This document shows, piece after piece, positions 48,881 to 63,917 of a stretch of DNA of 64,000 nucleotides. Each line of letters opens with the position of its first letter. Within the stretch, counting starts at the first letter, position 1. The position numbers and the translations under genes were made by a program. The notes beneath the pieces were generated by a model, which saw only the letters and a list, made by a program, of their open reading frames with translations, was not told the origin of the DNA and did not search any database. Source of the DNA: Ridgeia piscesae (lineage: Eukaryota > Annelida > Polychaeta > Sabellida > Siboglinidae); the NCBI GenBank assembly GCA_025642075.2, contig JAODUO010000124.1, positions 347,501 to 411,500 on the forward strand. The letters are read 5' to 3'.

Positions 48881-49573
48881 CTCACATTCCGGTCCCCTCG
48901 GCAATACAATTAGTTCGCAATAAAGTCACCGTAAGATAATGATGCTAATAATAATAAATAGTATTATATAGTTAGTCGGAAGGTATTGCTAATATACAAG
49001 TGCAAACCATTATTCTTGCTATTACAGTCACCTCACATTTCGGGTCACCTGCCCAATCTTGACGATGACGTAAAAAGCGAGACTATATGAAAAAGTATAT
49101 AAATGTACACTGATAGCGCTAAGCAAATCACCATATCCAATAGTCATGCCTGCTTAGAGATAAAGTTCACAGTTGATATAAAGACATTCTCAATAAACGC
49201 CACCAATGTAAAAAAAATATCTTTACTATCTGACAGTAACATTAGTGTTAAAGGACGCCATCTTTAAAAACTGCGAATATGAATGTCGGTTATGGTCAAA
49301 TATAAAATGATTAAAATCAGTACACGCGGATATGTATAATATTCAACATACAATTATGGTGTGAAGCATTTCTTGAGATAAGCGAAAAAATAATTATGTA
49401 TTTTGGGTGGCGGCTATTGTTATTATGCTTCTACATTCAGGCTGGTTCCATCAAACTTCTGAAACGATGCTGTATCAAGGTAAAATGTGCCCAATTATAT
49501 GTTTTGTCCAGATGTGAAAATGTGTGGCCTTTGTTGACATCAACATGACTTATTAGTCTTTTTTAGTGCGACG

Positions 49574-49841
49574 ATGCTGTTGCTAGTGGCAATCGTACTA
49601 CAGTCGTGTTTGCTAAATGACATCGCTACGGCGGCGAGGGCAGAATTTTTTGACCTCGCCCTCAAGATGCCGACGCGACAGATTACTACAGCAGGCCGTC
49701 GTAACTCATTGAATCCAGTGAGTTCGCACCCGTCCTGCTCGCAGACAACAAAGGTCCAGAAAGCGTGGTGGCAAGTGGACATCGGACAAAACTACCATAT
49801 TATCGCCGTGGCCTTAACCAACGACAGGGGGAAGAGCACAG
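49574..49841 (+). CDS. Gene 2, exon A: signal peptide and first half of FTP lectin domain
   Basis: ATG at 49574 follows an acceptor-like CTTTTTTAG ending at 49566, so a 5'-UTR exon probably lies upstream. Residues 1 to about 23 (MLLLVAIVLQSCLLNDIATAARA) form the signal peptide. The F-type lectin (FTP; eel-fucolectin, F5/8C-like) fold starts at FDLALKMPTRQ and includes the family hallmark KAWWQVDIGQNYHIIAVALT. In the fucose-binding motif of this family a His sits in a C-x-H context. Here the aligned CSQT has Gln, although a His lies just before the Cys (SHPSC), and the Arg after ALTN is displaced by one residue. Sugar binding may be altered or lost. The exon ends at ACAG|GTGAGT, phase 1. Confidence 0.85.
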
Positions 49842-50577
49842 GTGAGTAACGAGATGTAGACGGTTTCAGACTCAGACAGTGTTGCCAAGTCAAAATAAAA
49901 TTAATGTCAAGCCCAATGGCCCTCAAAAACTAGCCCAAAACTAGCTCAAAAATACCTTCAAATAATTATAAAATGGTACATTTTAAAAGATGCCAACGAC
50001 ACACCCCTACCGACAATAGAGGGAAATGCATTTCAAGTACATCACGCACAAAATATTTACCTAATGATGAGTGGATGATTCCATCTTTCCTTGCAGTTGA
50101 GTGCCACCTACTTTTCTACGGTGAACTAAAATATATATTATGATTGCTTGTTTAGACATTGTACATCATAACGTCATATAATTCCCCACATAAATGGTCC
50201 TCTACGTTATCACAGATATGCTCTACACTGCCTTATACGGTTGAGGTGCATAACTGCGTTAGTTAATGGTGTCTACTATCGTATATGTATCAAATTATGA
50301 CATTTGACAAATATGAAAAATATATATGCAATGACTGGATTACGTTATATCCAAGTGAAAATTAGCGAAACTGCACTTGAATATAATTTCTATGTTTTAC
50401 AAGTTTATGTTTGTGCTGCATGCACTTAATGGAAAATTGTGTAATCTGTTTTCAATTTATTTTACACAGGGTATACAATCATAATAGTTATCTTCGGTAT
50501 ACTCCTTTTTCTAACATAATCAAAATCTTATCATGTATTGTTGTGTTGAAAAAAATAAACATTATTATTATTATTAA

Positions 50578-50943
50578 AACGTTCCGATTGACGTTTCTAC
50601 GCATGCGCGTTAAATGTAAAATCATCAATGTGCAGCGAAAGAACAAAGCATTTATGGTATAAATACTACAGGTTGTTCGTTATGATGTATATAACCTCTC
50701 AAGTTTTGAAGCATGTTTCAATAGCAAGCGTAAATCACATGACTGCAGTGCGCCATAATCCGTGACAGGGATTTAAACAAATGTAATATTGTATTGTATT
50801 GAATGAAATTGTAAGCAACAACCACAGGAGAGTTATCGAACACCCCGTGGCATTTATACCAAAAAATGCTTAGTAGTTTTGCTGCACATTGATGATTTTA
50901 CATTTATCGCGCATGCGCAGAAATTTCAATAGGAAAGTTTATA
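50578..50943. mobile_element. MITE with ~110-bp inverted repeats
   Basis: CTACGCATGCGCGTTAAATG and AAAATCATCAATGTGCAGC on the left are mirrored on the right by GCTGCACATTGATGATTTT and CGCGCATGCGCAG. GGTATAAAT/ATTTATACC and GTTCG/CGAAC continue the arms to the centre. There is no coding capacity. Confidence 0.8.
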
Positions 50944-51879
50944 ACAACAGGGAAAATGTAAGCGCGACAACGCAATCAGCAACAGCGACCCCTGGCGCGC
51001 GAGAATGATTATTACCTTTATTTGTGGACAAATGGATGGCCCAGATTGGAGTGGGCAATGCTTTTGTCTCTTTTCAAAAAAACATTAGGAAGCTTTCATT
51101 TGGTAGTTCACAGTAAGTATTATGAGACATAGAATATGACGGCTCTTAATGTAACACATGACGTGAAAACCACCACTTTCGAAACTAGCCCGAAAATAGC
51201 GGCATGTGCACAAAAAGAAGCCCAACAACCGCAACCTGCAACTGCTAATTTTCCCCGCGGAACAAGCCTAAAACAACTCAACCCAATTCCGCTGGGAAAC
51301 CACGGACTTGGCAACACTGGACTCAGACTCGGACCGAGACTCGGATTCATTTATTTTGACCAAATCGATGTATAGTACAATCAACATACATATAAGTGGT
51401 CACGATACTCACGAGACTCCCACTAAGACACTGAATATGCCGCTAACATGGCAGCAACCTCGTTAATATAAAAATACTTGAACATAATACATTTACAATT
51501 AGTAATACAAACATTAGAAAAATAATAATACATTATGTTTACATTGGTATACTCAAGCTTATACACATATCGGCATGCAAAATGTATAGACCTACGCACA
51601 TCTATATAATATTATATGCGCGCAGTCACTGTTCACCTCTGCAACCGGCACACTCACGCGCACGCGCACACGTACGCACGCATATCTGTATCATTAGTCG
51701 AATGCCGTGCTGCCCGTATTTGGTGTGCGTTGGGCGGGGTGATCCAACATCTTGAAAAGCCGATTTCGTTTTAGCAACCCGAGTAAAACACGTACCACAA
51801 CATAACATCCGTTTAATGAGACACTTGGGTCGGATATTATTTCTTTTTTTAAGAAAATGAGTTTTCTGGTTTGAATTTC

Positions 51880-52191
51880 TATGTATATATATATATATAT
51901 ATATATATATATAAATGTCAAAATAAATATTTTATATATATATATATATATATATATATATATATATATACATATATATATATATATATATATATATATA
52001 TATATATATATATATATATATTATATATATATAATAAACAATATTTTATATATATATATATATATATATATATATATATATATATATATATATATATATA
52101 TATATATATAAAATTAAACAGAAACTATTTATATATATATATATATATATATATATATATATATATATATATATATATATATATATATATA
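51880..52191. repeat. (TA)n microsatellite block
   Basis: Four TA runs are separated by short AATAAA- and AATTAAACAG-type spacers, ~310 bp in total. The spacers may be collapsed unique sequence. Tyr/Ile frames here are shadows. Confidence 0.95.
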
Positions 52192-62363: not shown

Positions 62364-62561
62364 TGCTCAAAAAGAAGAATTGTGTCTCTTCATGCAAAGG
62401 ATTAACACTTGGCAATTACCAATCCTGCCACGGCTGCAACGTGTACGTGACGTGTGTCGGGTCACTAATGCTAGATGATCGACCATGCCCCAGAAACTTC
62501 GCTTGGGACGATAACAAGAAATTGTGTGAACGGAAAAGCTCAACATGCGGCAGAATAAAAG
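62364..62561 (+). CDS. Gene 2, exon D: chitin-binding domain (peritrophin-A type)
   Basis: 66 residues, phase 1 at both ends (CATTACAG|TG and AAAAG|GTGACT). The cysteine pattern is NCVSSCKG, then YQSCHGCNVYVTC, then DDRPCPRNFAWDDNKKLC, then STCG. The C-x5-C-x9-C-x12-C-x5-C spacing with aromatic residues fits the CBM14/ChtBD2 (peritrophin-A) family, which holds its fold by three disulfides; two extra Cys are present here. The domain normally binds chitin in extracellular matrices such as shell, cuticle or mucus layers. It joins in frame to exon C through ...VVDR-V-LKKKN. Confidence 0.85.
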
Positions 62562-63824
62562 GTGACTTTCTGCGTACCGTTTTCAGTGTCAGTGTATCTC
62601 TCTGCTGCCTCACATTCACTACCTTTCTCCCCTGTCGTCTTTCCATGTCTATCTCTCCCTCCCTTTCTCTGTCTTGCCATGCTTAATTGCGTCCGCCATT
62701 CCTACCTCCCGTTTTACTTCCTTCTGTTCTCTCCCTTTTCTCTCCCTCCCCGCATCTCTCTCCTAAACACACTCACCCACTCACACATTCACTTATTCAC
62801 TCTACCTCTCACTCATTCACCCATTCATTCAGTCAATCATTCACTCTTACTAAATCATTCACACTCACACTCTAATACACACGCACGCACGCACGCACGC
62901 ACGCACGCACGCACGCACGCACGCACGCACGCACGCACACACGCACGCACGACACACACACACACACACGCACGCACACACACACACACACACACACACA
63001 CACACACACACACACACACACACACACACACACACGCGCGCGCGCGCTTGCTTTCTTCATCTCTTCTCTCGCTCTCTTTCTTCTCTCACTCTCTGTCTCT
63101 CCCGAACTATCTCCCTCTCTCTCATTCTCACTTACTCACTCACTCACTCACTCACCCACTCATTCGCTCACTCACTCTCCCACTCATTCACTCATTCACT
63201 CACTCATTCACTCACTCACTCACTCTCCCATTCATTCATTCACTCACTCATTCACTCACTCACTCACTCACTAATTCACTCACTTACTTTCTGTATCTGT
63301 CTGTCTGTCTGTCTGTCTGTATGTCTATATGTCTCTGTCTGTCTTGTCGGTCTGTCGGTCTGTCGGTCTGTCGGTCTGTCTGTCTGTCTGTCTGTCTGTC
63401 TGTCTGTATGTCTGTCTGTCTGTCTGTCTGTCTGTCTGTCTGTCTGTCTGTCTGTATGTCTGTCTGTCTGTCTGTCTGTCTGTCTGTCTCTCTCTCTCGT
63501 CTGTCTGTCTGTCTGTCTGTCTGTCTGTCTGTCTGTCTGTCTGTCTGTATGTCTGTCTGTCTGTCTGTCTGTCTGTCTGTCTGTCTGTCTGTCTGTCTGT
63601 CTGTCTGTCTGTCTGTCTGTCTGTCTGTCTGTCTGTCTGTCTGTCTGTCTGTCTGTCGTCTGTCTGTCTGTCTGTCTGTCTGTCTGTCTGTCTGTCTGTC
63701 TGTCTGTCTGTCTGTCTGTCTGTCTCTCTCTCTCTCTCTCTCTCTCTCTCAATTTTAAATGGGTCTTCCGTTCATCCGCCTACGCTACCGCTGTTTTTTG
63801 TTTATATCGAATGTACTGTTGTAG
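62562..63824 (+). other. Gene 2 last intron (inferred), mostly simple repeats
   Basis: From GTGACT to CTGTTGTAG. It contains a C/T-rich part (62600-62875), (ACGC)n and (CA)n (62877-63047), TCAC/CTCA repeats (about 63120-63290) and (CTGT)n (63296-63725) ending in (CT)n. The long frames across it on both strands are artefacts. Confidence 0.6.
63296..63750. repeat. (CTGT)n tetranucleotide array
   Basis: About 430 bp of CTGT with a few CGGT, CTAT and ATGT variants, then CT dinucleotides. It gives Cys-Leu-Ser-Val and Asp-Arg-Gln-Thr frames, neither a gene. Confidence 0.98.
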
Positions 63825-63829
63825 GTTGA
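63825..63829 (+). CDS. Gene 2, last exon: final codon and stop
   Basis: After a T-rich tract ending in GTTGTAG, the exon begins GT TGA. With the phase-1 G from exon D this makes a Gly codon followed at once by TGA (63827-63829), so the protein ends ...CGRIKG. An AATAAA follows 83 nt later. The alternative is reading through the donor after exon D, which would add low-complexity residues and is less likely. Confidence 0.5.
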
Positions 63830-63911
63830 CACTGGACTACGTTGCCTTCGTGGAGTAATACGCCGGCGTTATACGGGTATTCGTGTTGGATTATGCCACC
63901 AGATGGCGTCG

Positions 63912-63917
63912 AATAAA
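63912..63917 (+). terminator. Polyadenylation signal of gene 2
   Basis: AATAAA within GTCGAATAAATGTATTTCC, 83 nt after the inferred stop, followed by a GT-rich AACGTGTGTTCTTG stretch as in animal poly(A) sites. The remaining ~80 nt of the window hold nothing recognised. Confidence 0.55.

Follow-up and report, generated by a model that had tools for sequence, protein, structure and literature searches.

A candidate precursor gene and its exons

The window (the whole 64-kb stretch of DNA analysed, which is part of the contig called C124 below) contains a set of exons on the + strand that encode a signal peptide and an FTP-like domain spread over two exons, an RRKR site, an exon of acidic 15-residue repeats and a CBM_14 exon (Table 1). 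All introns and exon borders are in phase 1. A preliminary description of this DNA had proposed five exons with phase-1 introns, a signal peptide, a stop codon and an AATAAA signal, and these were borne out by the coordinates that we read. The signal peptide is MLLLVAIVLQSCLLNDIATAARA, with the cleavage point judged by eye, and exon 1 ends in a strong phase-1 donor (CAG/gtgagt). Exon 5 is the weakest-supported exon and is without a relative for comparison. There were no Rfam matches at gathering scores in the 64-kb window.

The same description had the exons joining in one frame, and this part did not hold. The length of exon 3 is 2 modulo 3. The frame that enters it ends at a stop codon (60709-60711), and the frame that leads into exon 4 does not become open before 60669. 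The assembly therefore has a net -1 shift within the repeat, near 60640-60700.

Table 1. Features of the locus (window positions).
Feature	Position	Strand	Description
Exon 1	49567..49841	+	7-nt 5'UTR after acceptor; ATG 49574; signal peptide; first FTP-like half
Duplicated block A	52786..54343	+	paired with 57213-58870; overall identity 89%, some segments without any difference and others rich in indels
Exon 2, copy A	53785..54024	+	second FTP-like half; open to stop 54066-54068; AATAAA 54301
LINE-type element	54372..56963	+	reverse transcriptase ORFs; between exon 2 copies; RVT_1 50.4 bits at 56187-56960
Exon 2, copy B	58312..58551	+	identical to copy A; open to stop 58593-58595; AATAAA 58828
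Exon 3	58919..61050	+	acidic repeat, 2132 nt
RRKR, furin-type site	58933..58944	+	R-X-[KR]-R pattern match at start of exon 3
Exon 4	62364..62561	+	CBM_14 / peritrophin-A; phase 1 at both ends
Exon 5	63825..63917	+	stop TGA 63827-63829; AATAAA 63912-63917

Both copies of exon 2 sit in a 1.5-kb duplication in which identical stretches adjoin an indel-rich stretch. This pattern resembles that of an unpolished long-read assembly, and the duplication is likely to be a local assembly artefact. The LINE-type element between the copies is similar to 13803-15723 of the window.

The encoded modules

The lectin part scored 25.8 bits against the Pfam profile F5_F8_type_C_2, and it matched the PDB sequences of fucolectin FBP32 (E 9.1e-7), Sm-hPAF (0.0023) and eel lectin (0.02). 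By similarity to solved structures only, the head can be assigned to the FTP/F5-8 type of domain. F-type lectins have the fucose motif HX24RXDX4[RK], and FTL domains that deviate from it are also noted in the part of the literature that we used (PMC5712786). There was no match to this motif, or to the calcium motif h2DGx (tested as [VAI][VAI]DG[NDS]), in the lectin part or in exon 1 of its nearest relative. The His of SCTHT is replaced by Gln here. The preliminary description had called the head an F-type lectin; the FTP-like fold stands, but given the absence of both motifs, fucose binding is not supported. The head is probably a degenerate, fucose-lectin-like domain. A second match to R-X-[KR]-R, RCRR at residue 136, lies within the lectin and is a second possible cut.

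The profile search placed the lectin part just below its cut-off (27.8 bits) and exon 4 above its own: exon 4 scored 22.6 bits against the CBM_14 profile (cut-off 22.1), and three relatives scored 26.9, 33.1 and 33.5. By this profile, the product of exon 4 is a predicted chitin binder. An AlphaFold model of the CBM_14 exon alone had a pLDDT of 45 and was set aside. There are 86 CBM_14-like exon matches in the genome.

The unit of the exon 3 repeat is 15 residues long and of the SSGDMSSGEQSGDYM type, with a composition of Ser, Gly, Asp, Met and Glu. It is interrupted by three hydrophobic inserts between 59254 and 59998 (ALLFLYIIM, TLLLLYMS and ALLLLYIIM, near 59254, 59497 and 59971). The computed pI of the acidic part is about 4, compared with 10 for the basic lectin head. 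The furin-type site (as a pattern), the acidic repeat and the chitin-binding domain of the preliminary description are supported, as is its view that the product is secreted.

Relatives in the genome and the joining of the exons

C124 has another FTP exon 1 on the + strand, 31.6 kb further downstream (C124:428724-428972), with the 7-nt spacing from acceptor to ATG that is found in exon 1. The acidic repeat of this relative ends near 436.4 kb at a phase-1 donor (assigned by eye), and a CBM_14 exon is present near 460.9 kb. A faint second-half FTP match at C124:458957 (E 0.16) was dropped because it is inside a reverse-transcriptase-like stretch. Exon 3 and the repeat exon of the relative share an identical 21-mer. 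Their best blastn score was 41.9 bits, compared with a maximum of 37.4 and a mean of 24.9 in 200 codon shuffles, which drop the tandem structure, and 26.5 for the reversed repeat.

Other relatives are partial. Contig C437 has an FTP exon 2 and, 2.8 kb downstream of it in the same orientation, a phase-1 CBM_14 exon; no acidic repeat was found in the 2.4 kb read there, which covers all but about 1 kb of the interval between the two exons. Outside C124 (36 FTP matches), this is the one case of a same-strand CBM match within 10 kb downstream of an FTP match, against 0.025 expected under a uniform model that ignores clustering. A relative without the lectin (C124:58011-66461, contig positions) has a signal-peptide exon with RQRR at 58011 and CBM_14 at 66279. 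It appears to encode a signal peptide, a short propeptide, RQRR and CBM_14, and a good acceptor just before its ATG is absent (score -1.5). MAM halves were seen between two CBM_14 exons and might belong to one gene. Together, the incomplete copies in the neighborhood point to a family of genes for matrix proteins whose parts can be exchanged.

The join of exon 2 to exon 3 is the weak point of a model in which one gene spans all five exons. Among the GTs of the window, scored with a donor matrix, the donors of exons 1, 3 and 4 rank in the top 0.03%, 0.65% and 1.1%, whereas the weak donor of exon 2 (TTG/gtaatg) gets no higher than the top 13.9%. When contig positions 397342-410100 were scanned for exons, exons 3 and 4 had the two best passing acceptors (four phase-1, none phase-0 and one phase-2), which is more than chance, and exon 2 was below the donor threshold. 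The corresponding donor in C437 scored -4.9, worse than the one here. Retention of gtaatg in C437 was considered as support for the donor and dropped, since the following 42 nt are kept too, making it neutral or adverse. These 42 nt are 64% identical to C437, compared with 47% for exon 2 itself, and the tail looks as if it were coding, since it is better conserved than the exon.

The weak donor and the conserved tail would fit two neighbouring genes, a secreted FTP lectin of 183 aa that ends at the exon 2 stop and an acidic-repeat CBM_14 gene with an unseen first exon, the pair being duplicated as a unit. Exon 2 does run on to its own stop (...SNY), with AATAAA about 230 nt later, and the two modules are mostly apart in the genome: 13 of 15 contigs with FTP matches and 44 of 46 with CBM matches lack the other module, C124 and C437 having both. 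However, the density of AATAAA in the window is 1.14 per kb, so its presence after the exon 2 stop says little, and there is no ATG in exon 3 before RRKR. Nor did a scan of the interval from exon 1 to exon 3, run at four thresholds, reveal any signal-peptide exon that ends in a phase-1 donor, compared with 0.2 to 2.7 per 9 kb expected from a control (1, 8, 15 and 5 matches in window positions 1-49500); because few chance hits are expected in 9 kb, this zero is only moderate evidence. We consider the arrangement in two genes unlikely. Alternative splicing from exon 1, yielding a small lectin from exons 1 and 2 up to the stop, and from exons 1, 3, 4 and 5 a signal peptide, half an FTP domain as propeptide, the RRKR cut and an acidic CBM_14 protein, seems quite unlikely. 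Exon 1 has the best-scored donor and can be spliced to exon 3 in frame, and the lectin-free relative has a similar plan, but half an FTP domain would be unlikely to fold, and exon 2 up to gtaatg, with its 240 nt and a phase-1 border at either end, is like an internal exon.

It is also conceivable, though very unlikely, that the locus is a pseudogene with a real frame shift, or that misassembly has scrambled the order of its exons. The net -1 shift in exon 3 and the patchy duplication around exon 2 would fit such a history. Against it, frame breaks are also seen in the acidic repeat of the relative, as expected of errors in repeats, and replacement changes per site are fewer than silent ones in the lectin exon 1 pair (dN 0.42, dS 1.22) and in six of six CBM_14 pairs.

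We favor, with a probability of about 0.4, a single + strand gene that encodes the whole secreted precursor, from lectin to CBM_14. The order in the precursor would be signal peptide, FTP-like (F5/8-like jelly-roll) domain, RRKR, acidic repeat and CBM_14. Cleavage at RRKR would be the work of a furin-type protease, and the C-terminal CBM_14 domain would hold the released acidic part on chitin. Dense carboxylates, perhaps with phosphoserines, would bind calcium or cationic partners in the extracellular matrix. The basic FTP head may neutralize the charge of the acidic part before cleavage, or bind another ligand. The matrix role suggested earlier for the secreted product is plausible. A broader proposal, which we regard as doubtful, is a family of precursors for acidic matrix proteins tethered to chitin, arisen by exon shuffling. 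Its members would have in common the phase-1 CBM_14 exon and a furin-type site, some would also carry an acidic repeat particular to the gene, and the head would be exchanged between an FTP-like domain, a short propeptide and perhaps MAM. If the lectin and repeat exons of the present gene do join, its copies along a single contig would show the assembly of matrix proteins by phase-1 exon shuffling, and the turnover of acidic repeats between neighbors.

Comparison with known systems

The preliminary description knew of no protein with this domain order. Precisely this arrangement, with FTP first and then furin site, acidic repeat and chitin-binding domain, was not found in the titles or abstract beginnings of the literature searched. 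However, the shell protein idb_982 of the abalone Haliotis laevigata, present in both shell layers, is a precedent that makes the claim of novelty weaker than stated. It is secreted and combines, as here, a fucolectin/tachylectin-4/pentraxin-1 type domain with chitin-binding domains, six in number, in one protein; its description, on which the likeness is based, adds multiple Sushi domains, a galactose-binding domain and galectin, and neither an acidic repeat nor a cleavage site figures in it (PMC6003135). Several major acidic shell proteins of the same species have a pI of 3.3-4.5, tandem repeats and predicted disorder, as in the repeat here, and no FTP-like head or CBM_14 is named on them in the account consulted (PMC6003135). 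F-type lectins have a jelly-roll domain of about 140 residues, like the head here, and known mosaic members; the partners given are C-type lectin, pentraxin, CCP, transmembrane and FA58C, and the word "chitin" is absent from the text of the review (PMC5712786).

The Pif/BMSP shell matrix proteins of molluscs are also made as secreted precursors. Pif, which is cleaved at the dibasic sequence RMKR, has VWA domains, laminin-G in the C-terminal product, the chitin-binding domain on the N-terminal product and a low-complexity part with many acidic and basic residues (PMC11291548). Here a similar dibasic site, RRKR, is present between head and acidic part, by pattern only. The gene differs in having an FTP-like head and in keeping the chitin-binding domain with the acidic part, and there was no VWA or laminin-G match in the pieces scanned (the lectin, exon 4 and both frame parts of exon 3).

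VCBPs (V-region-containing chitin-binding proteins) have two Ig V domains in place of FTP, and we know of no acidic repeat or furin-type site in them. In these protochordate proteins a V region is joined to a chitin-binding domain, much as lectin and chitin-binding modules would be paired here (PMC2632668). The predicted pairing of an FTP-like head with chitin binding is of a known kind, that of idb_982, and the putative cleavage logic is shared with Pif. If exons 2 and 3 do join, the gene would stand next to Pif as another solution for uniting chitin binding, an acidic stretch and a head that can be cleaved off within a single precursor, the head here having a lectin fold but not the sugar motif that goes with it.

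Exon layout, domain matches and composition

The candidate gene comprises five exons (e1 to e5), and every exon border is in phase 1. The lectin part scored 25.8 bits against the Pfam family F5_F8_type_C_2 (cut-off 27.8) and e4 scored 22.6 bits against CBM_14, the peritrophin-A chitin-binding domain (cut-off 22.1); no Pfam match to e3 was found when both of its frame parts were scanned. The best solved-structure relatives of the lectin part were FBP32 (9.1e-7), Sm-hPAF (0.0023, a match that spans the e1/e2 join) and the eel lectin 1k12 (0.02), and that of e4 was 4z4a, a CBM family 14 protein (1.7e-4).

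Exons of the candidate gene, in window coordinates
Exon	Position	Strand	Content
e1	ATG 49574	+	signal peptide and first half of F-type-lectin-like (FTP-like) domain
e2	53785-54024 and 58312-58551	+	second half of FTP-like domain
e3	58919-61050	+	starts ...GRRKRST, then acidic repeat
e4	62364-62561	+	CBM_14 domain
e5	from 63825	+	stop codon and AATAAA

The first frame of e3 encodes 596 aa (S 23.5%, G 15.9%, D 11.2%, M 8.6%, E 8.4%) with a computed pI of 4.05, compared to 10.0 for the mature FTP part and 9.2 for CBM_14. Its 140 serines include 27 in S-x-E, the FAM20C motif, and 43 in S-x-D. PMC4094399 mentions phosphorylation of matrix proteins by FAM20C. Three similar hydrophobic inserts (DEDMKALLFLYIIMG type) at 59254, 59497 and 59971 in the acidic repeat could be self-assembly drivers. 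A second furin-type pattern, RCRR, lies within the lectin.

The preliminary description had associated the FTP domain with fucose-type glycans. Both the fucose motif HX24RXDX4[RK] and the calcium motif given in PMC5712786 are missing from the lectin part, which for this reason does not count as a canonical F-type lectin; e1 of the nearest relative lacks them as well. SCTHT of FBP32 is SCSQT in the lectin part and this relative alike, and PMC5712786 also describes five oyster isoforms without the basic triad.

Elsewhere in the window, a candidate neighbour gene (27988-32944, + strand) has a signal-peptide ORF (MLLSALLVMLLPVGLVWG...) and then an ORF of ~1,100 codons with acidic and basic repeats (GDDEDGEEEGL..., KSKRRTSRRR...) and RRRR. 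It had no Pfam match and seems to encode a further secreted protein of repetitive sequence; the ORF join is putative. A long tandem array with shifted self-matches ~91% identical lies at 2637-5448.

Related exons on the contig and across the assembly

The window occupies 347501-411500 of its contig, C124. Within the 355 of 555 kb of C124 that were read, window included and part of it N, a single relative of e1 was found, at 428724-428972, with 41% identity across the BLAST match. It has an acceptor 7 nt before the ATG, as in e1, and a phase-1 donor. Downstream lie an acidic repeat (GEGYGGEESDDDTGTGDG type) near 435.0-436.4 kb, which also has frame breaks and, by eye, ends in a phase-1 donor gtaagt, and, near 460.9 kb, a CBM_14 exon; an N stretch hides the start of this repeat and perhaps an exon 2. 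The two repeats have an identical 21-mer (GEESDDD) in common and align at 41.9 bits, whereas none of 200 codon shuffles, in which tandem structure is lost, scored higher than 37.4. Further CBM_14 exons lie at ~503.5 and ~66.3 kb, and all four on the contig score above the cut-off and are, by eye, phase 1 on both sides. Upstream of the 66.3-kb exon lies a signal-peptide exon (58011-58143) that closes with ...ESRQRRGG and a phase-1 donor; splicing of the two would yield signal peptide, propeptide, RQRR and CBM_14.

Two CBM_14 exons (L007:9529-9696 and L012:2117-2284, in the coordinates of those sequences) are followed by the furin-type patterns RSRRKR and RSRSKR, C-terminal of the domain. Two split MAM domains in four pieces (L009:7588-8459 and L010:1551-2644; Pfam 31.5-38.7 bits), flanked by two CBM_14 exons on the same contig, are perhaps another swapped head.

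Across the assembly (628 Mb, 4875 contigs), scoring of 142 candidates for the CBM_14 exon gave 86 matches at E<=0.001, spread over 46 contigs, and the lectin had at least 40 matches on at least 15 contigs (150 of 321 candidates scored). Of 40 lectin matches scored, 27 fell inside query residues 87-168, 12 inside 1-104 and one covered 73-167, so the two-exon split looks general. Among the matches scored, FTP and CBM_14 occurred together only on C124 and C437. On C437, a CBM_14 exon with phase-1 borders follows an FTP exon 2 (70253-70483, minus strand) in the same orientation at a distance of 2.8 kb; a uniform model predicts 0.025 such cases among the 36 scored FTP matches off C124. Clusters of FTP-like exons, with at least 15 and at least 6 matches, lie on the contigs C599 and C769, where CBM_14 had no match; they represent a predicted expanded lectin-like family.

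One precursor or separate products

The most likely reading, at a probability of roughly 0.4, is a single precursor that would be cleaved at RRKR, CBM_14 then keeping the acidic part on chitin; the basic head on the acidic tail may hold the precursor quiet until cleavage. That separate genes are involved is doubtful. No signal-peptide exon with a phase-1 donor was found between e1 and e3 at any of four thresholds, leaving e1 as the sole visible secretory start for e3 and e4. The same scan, which e1 passes, returned 1, 8, 15 and 5 exons in window 1-49500, or 0.2 to 2.7 per 9 kb, so that the lack of any hit over 9 kb carries moderate weight only. Against e1 in this role, e2 continues to its own stop (...GNAAIDSSSNRSNY), with AATAAA ~230 nt beyond. 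Exon 2 on C437 ends in gtaatg in the same phase as e2; the 42 nt after the donor are 64% identical and the exon 47%, so conservation does not mark out a splice site. A coding tail would explain it no less well, and nothing else weighs more heavily against the e2-e3 join of the preliminary description.

Splice sites were ranked with an assumed scoring matrix. Among the 3989 GTs of the window, the donors of e1, e2, e3 and e4 ranked in the top 0.03%, 13.9%, 0.65% and 1.1%; among 3430 AGs, the acceptors of e2 to e5 ranked at 8.8%, 3.4%, 2.5% and 6.9%. A scan of contig positions 397342-410100 for exons of at least 90 nt gave four phase-1, no phase-0 and one phase-2 acceptors. Its top two exons were e3 and e4, a third was nested within e4, and e2 fell below the donor threshold. 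Exon skipping is an unlikely explanation.

The five exons had been described as joining in one frame, which fails in the assembled sequence: e3 is 2132 nt, not divisible by 3. Since its entry frame meets a stop at 60709-60711 and the frame leading properly into e4 is open from 60669 only, the assembly has a net -1 shift within the repeat. Identical copies of e2 lie in a 1.5-kb duplication (52786-54343 and 57213-58870), of which ~600 bases around e2 are identical except for one mismatch. Another ~900 alignment columns are rich in indels: the second copy has 101 additional letters there and the first has one. We infer that the duplication is a local assembly artefact of unpolished long-read sequence. 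That the gene as a whole is a pseudogene or artefact is improbable. Silent changes per site exceeded replacement changes in the lectin e1 pair (0.60 to 0.32) and in all six CBM pairs, in one narrowly (0.18 to 0.14).

Comparison with known matrix proteins

The exact order of FTP, furin site, acidic repeat and chitin-binding domain was not found in a shallow check of literature titles and the beginnings of abstracts. A table in PMC6003135 lists, for the abalone shell protein idb_982, found in nacre and prismatic layers, a signal peptide and multiple Sushi, galactose-binding, six chitin-binding, fucolectin-type and galectin domains. Fucolectin-type and chitin-binding domains in one shell protein have thus already been described, and, relative to that entry, the acidic repeat and cleavage site set the window gene apart. 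PMC11291548 describes Pif as being cleaved at RMKR: one part is VWA/chitin-binding, and the other, which binds aragonite, has low-complexity acidic and basic regions. By analogy, the window gene would share this logic. It is not a Pif member, as VWA and laminin-G were not found in it and its chitin-binding domain is on the opposite side of the cut.
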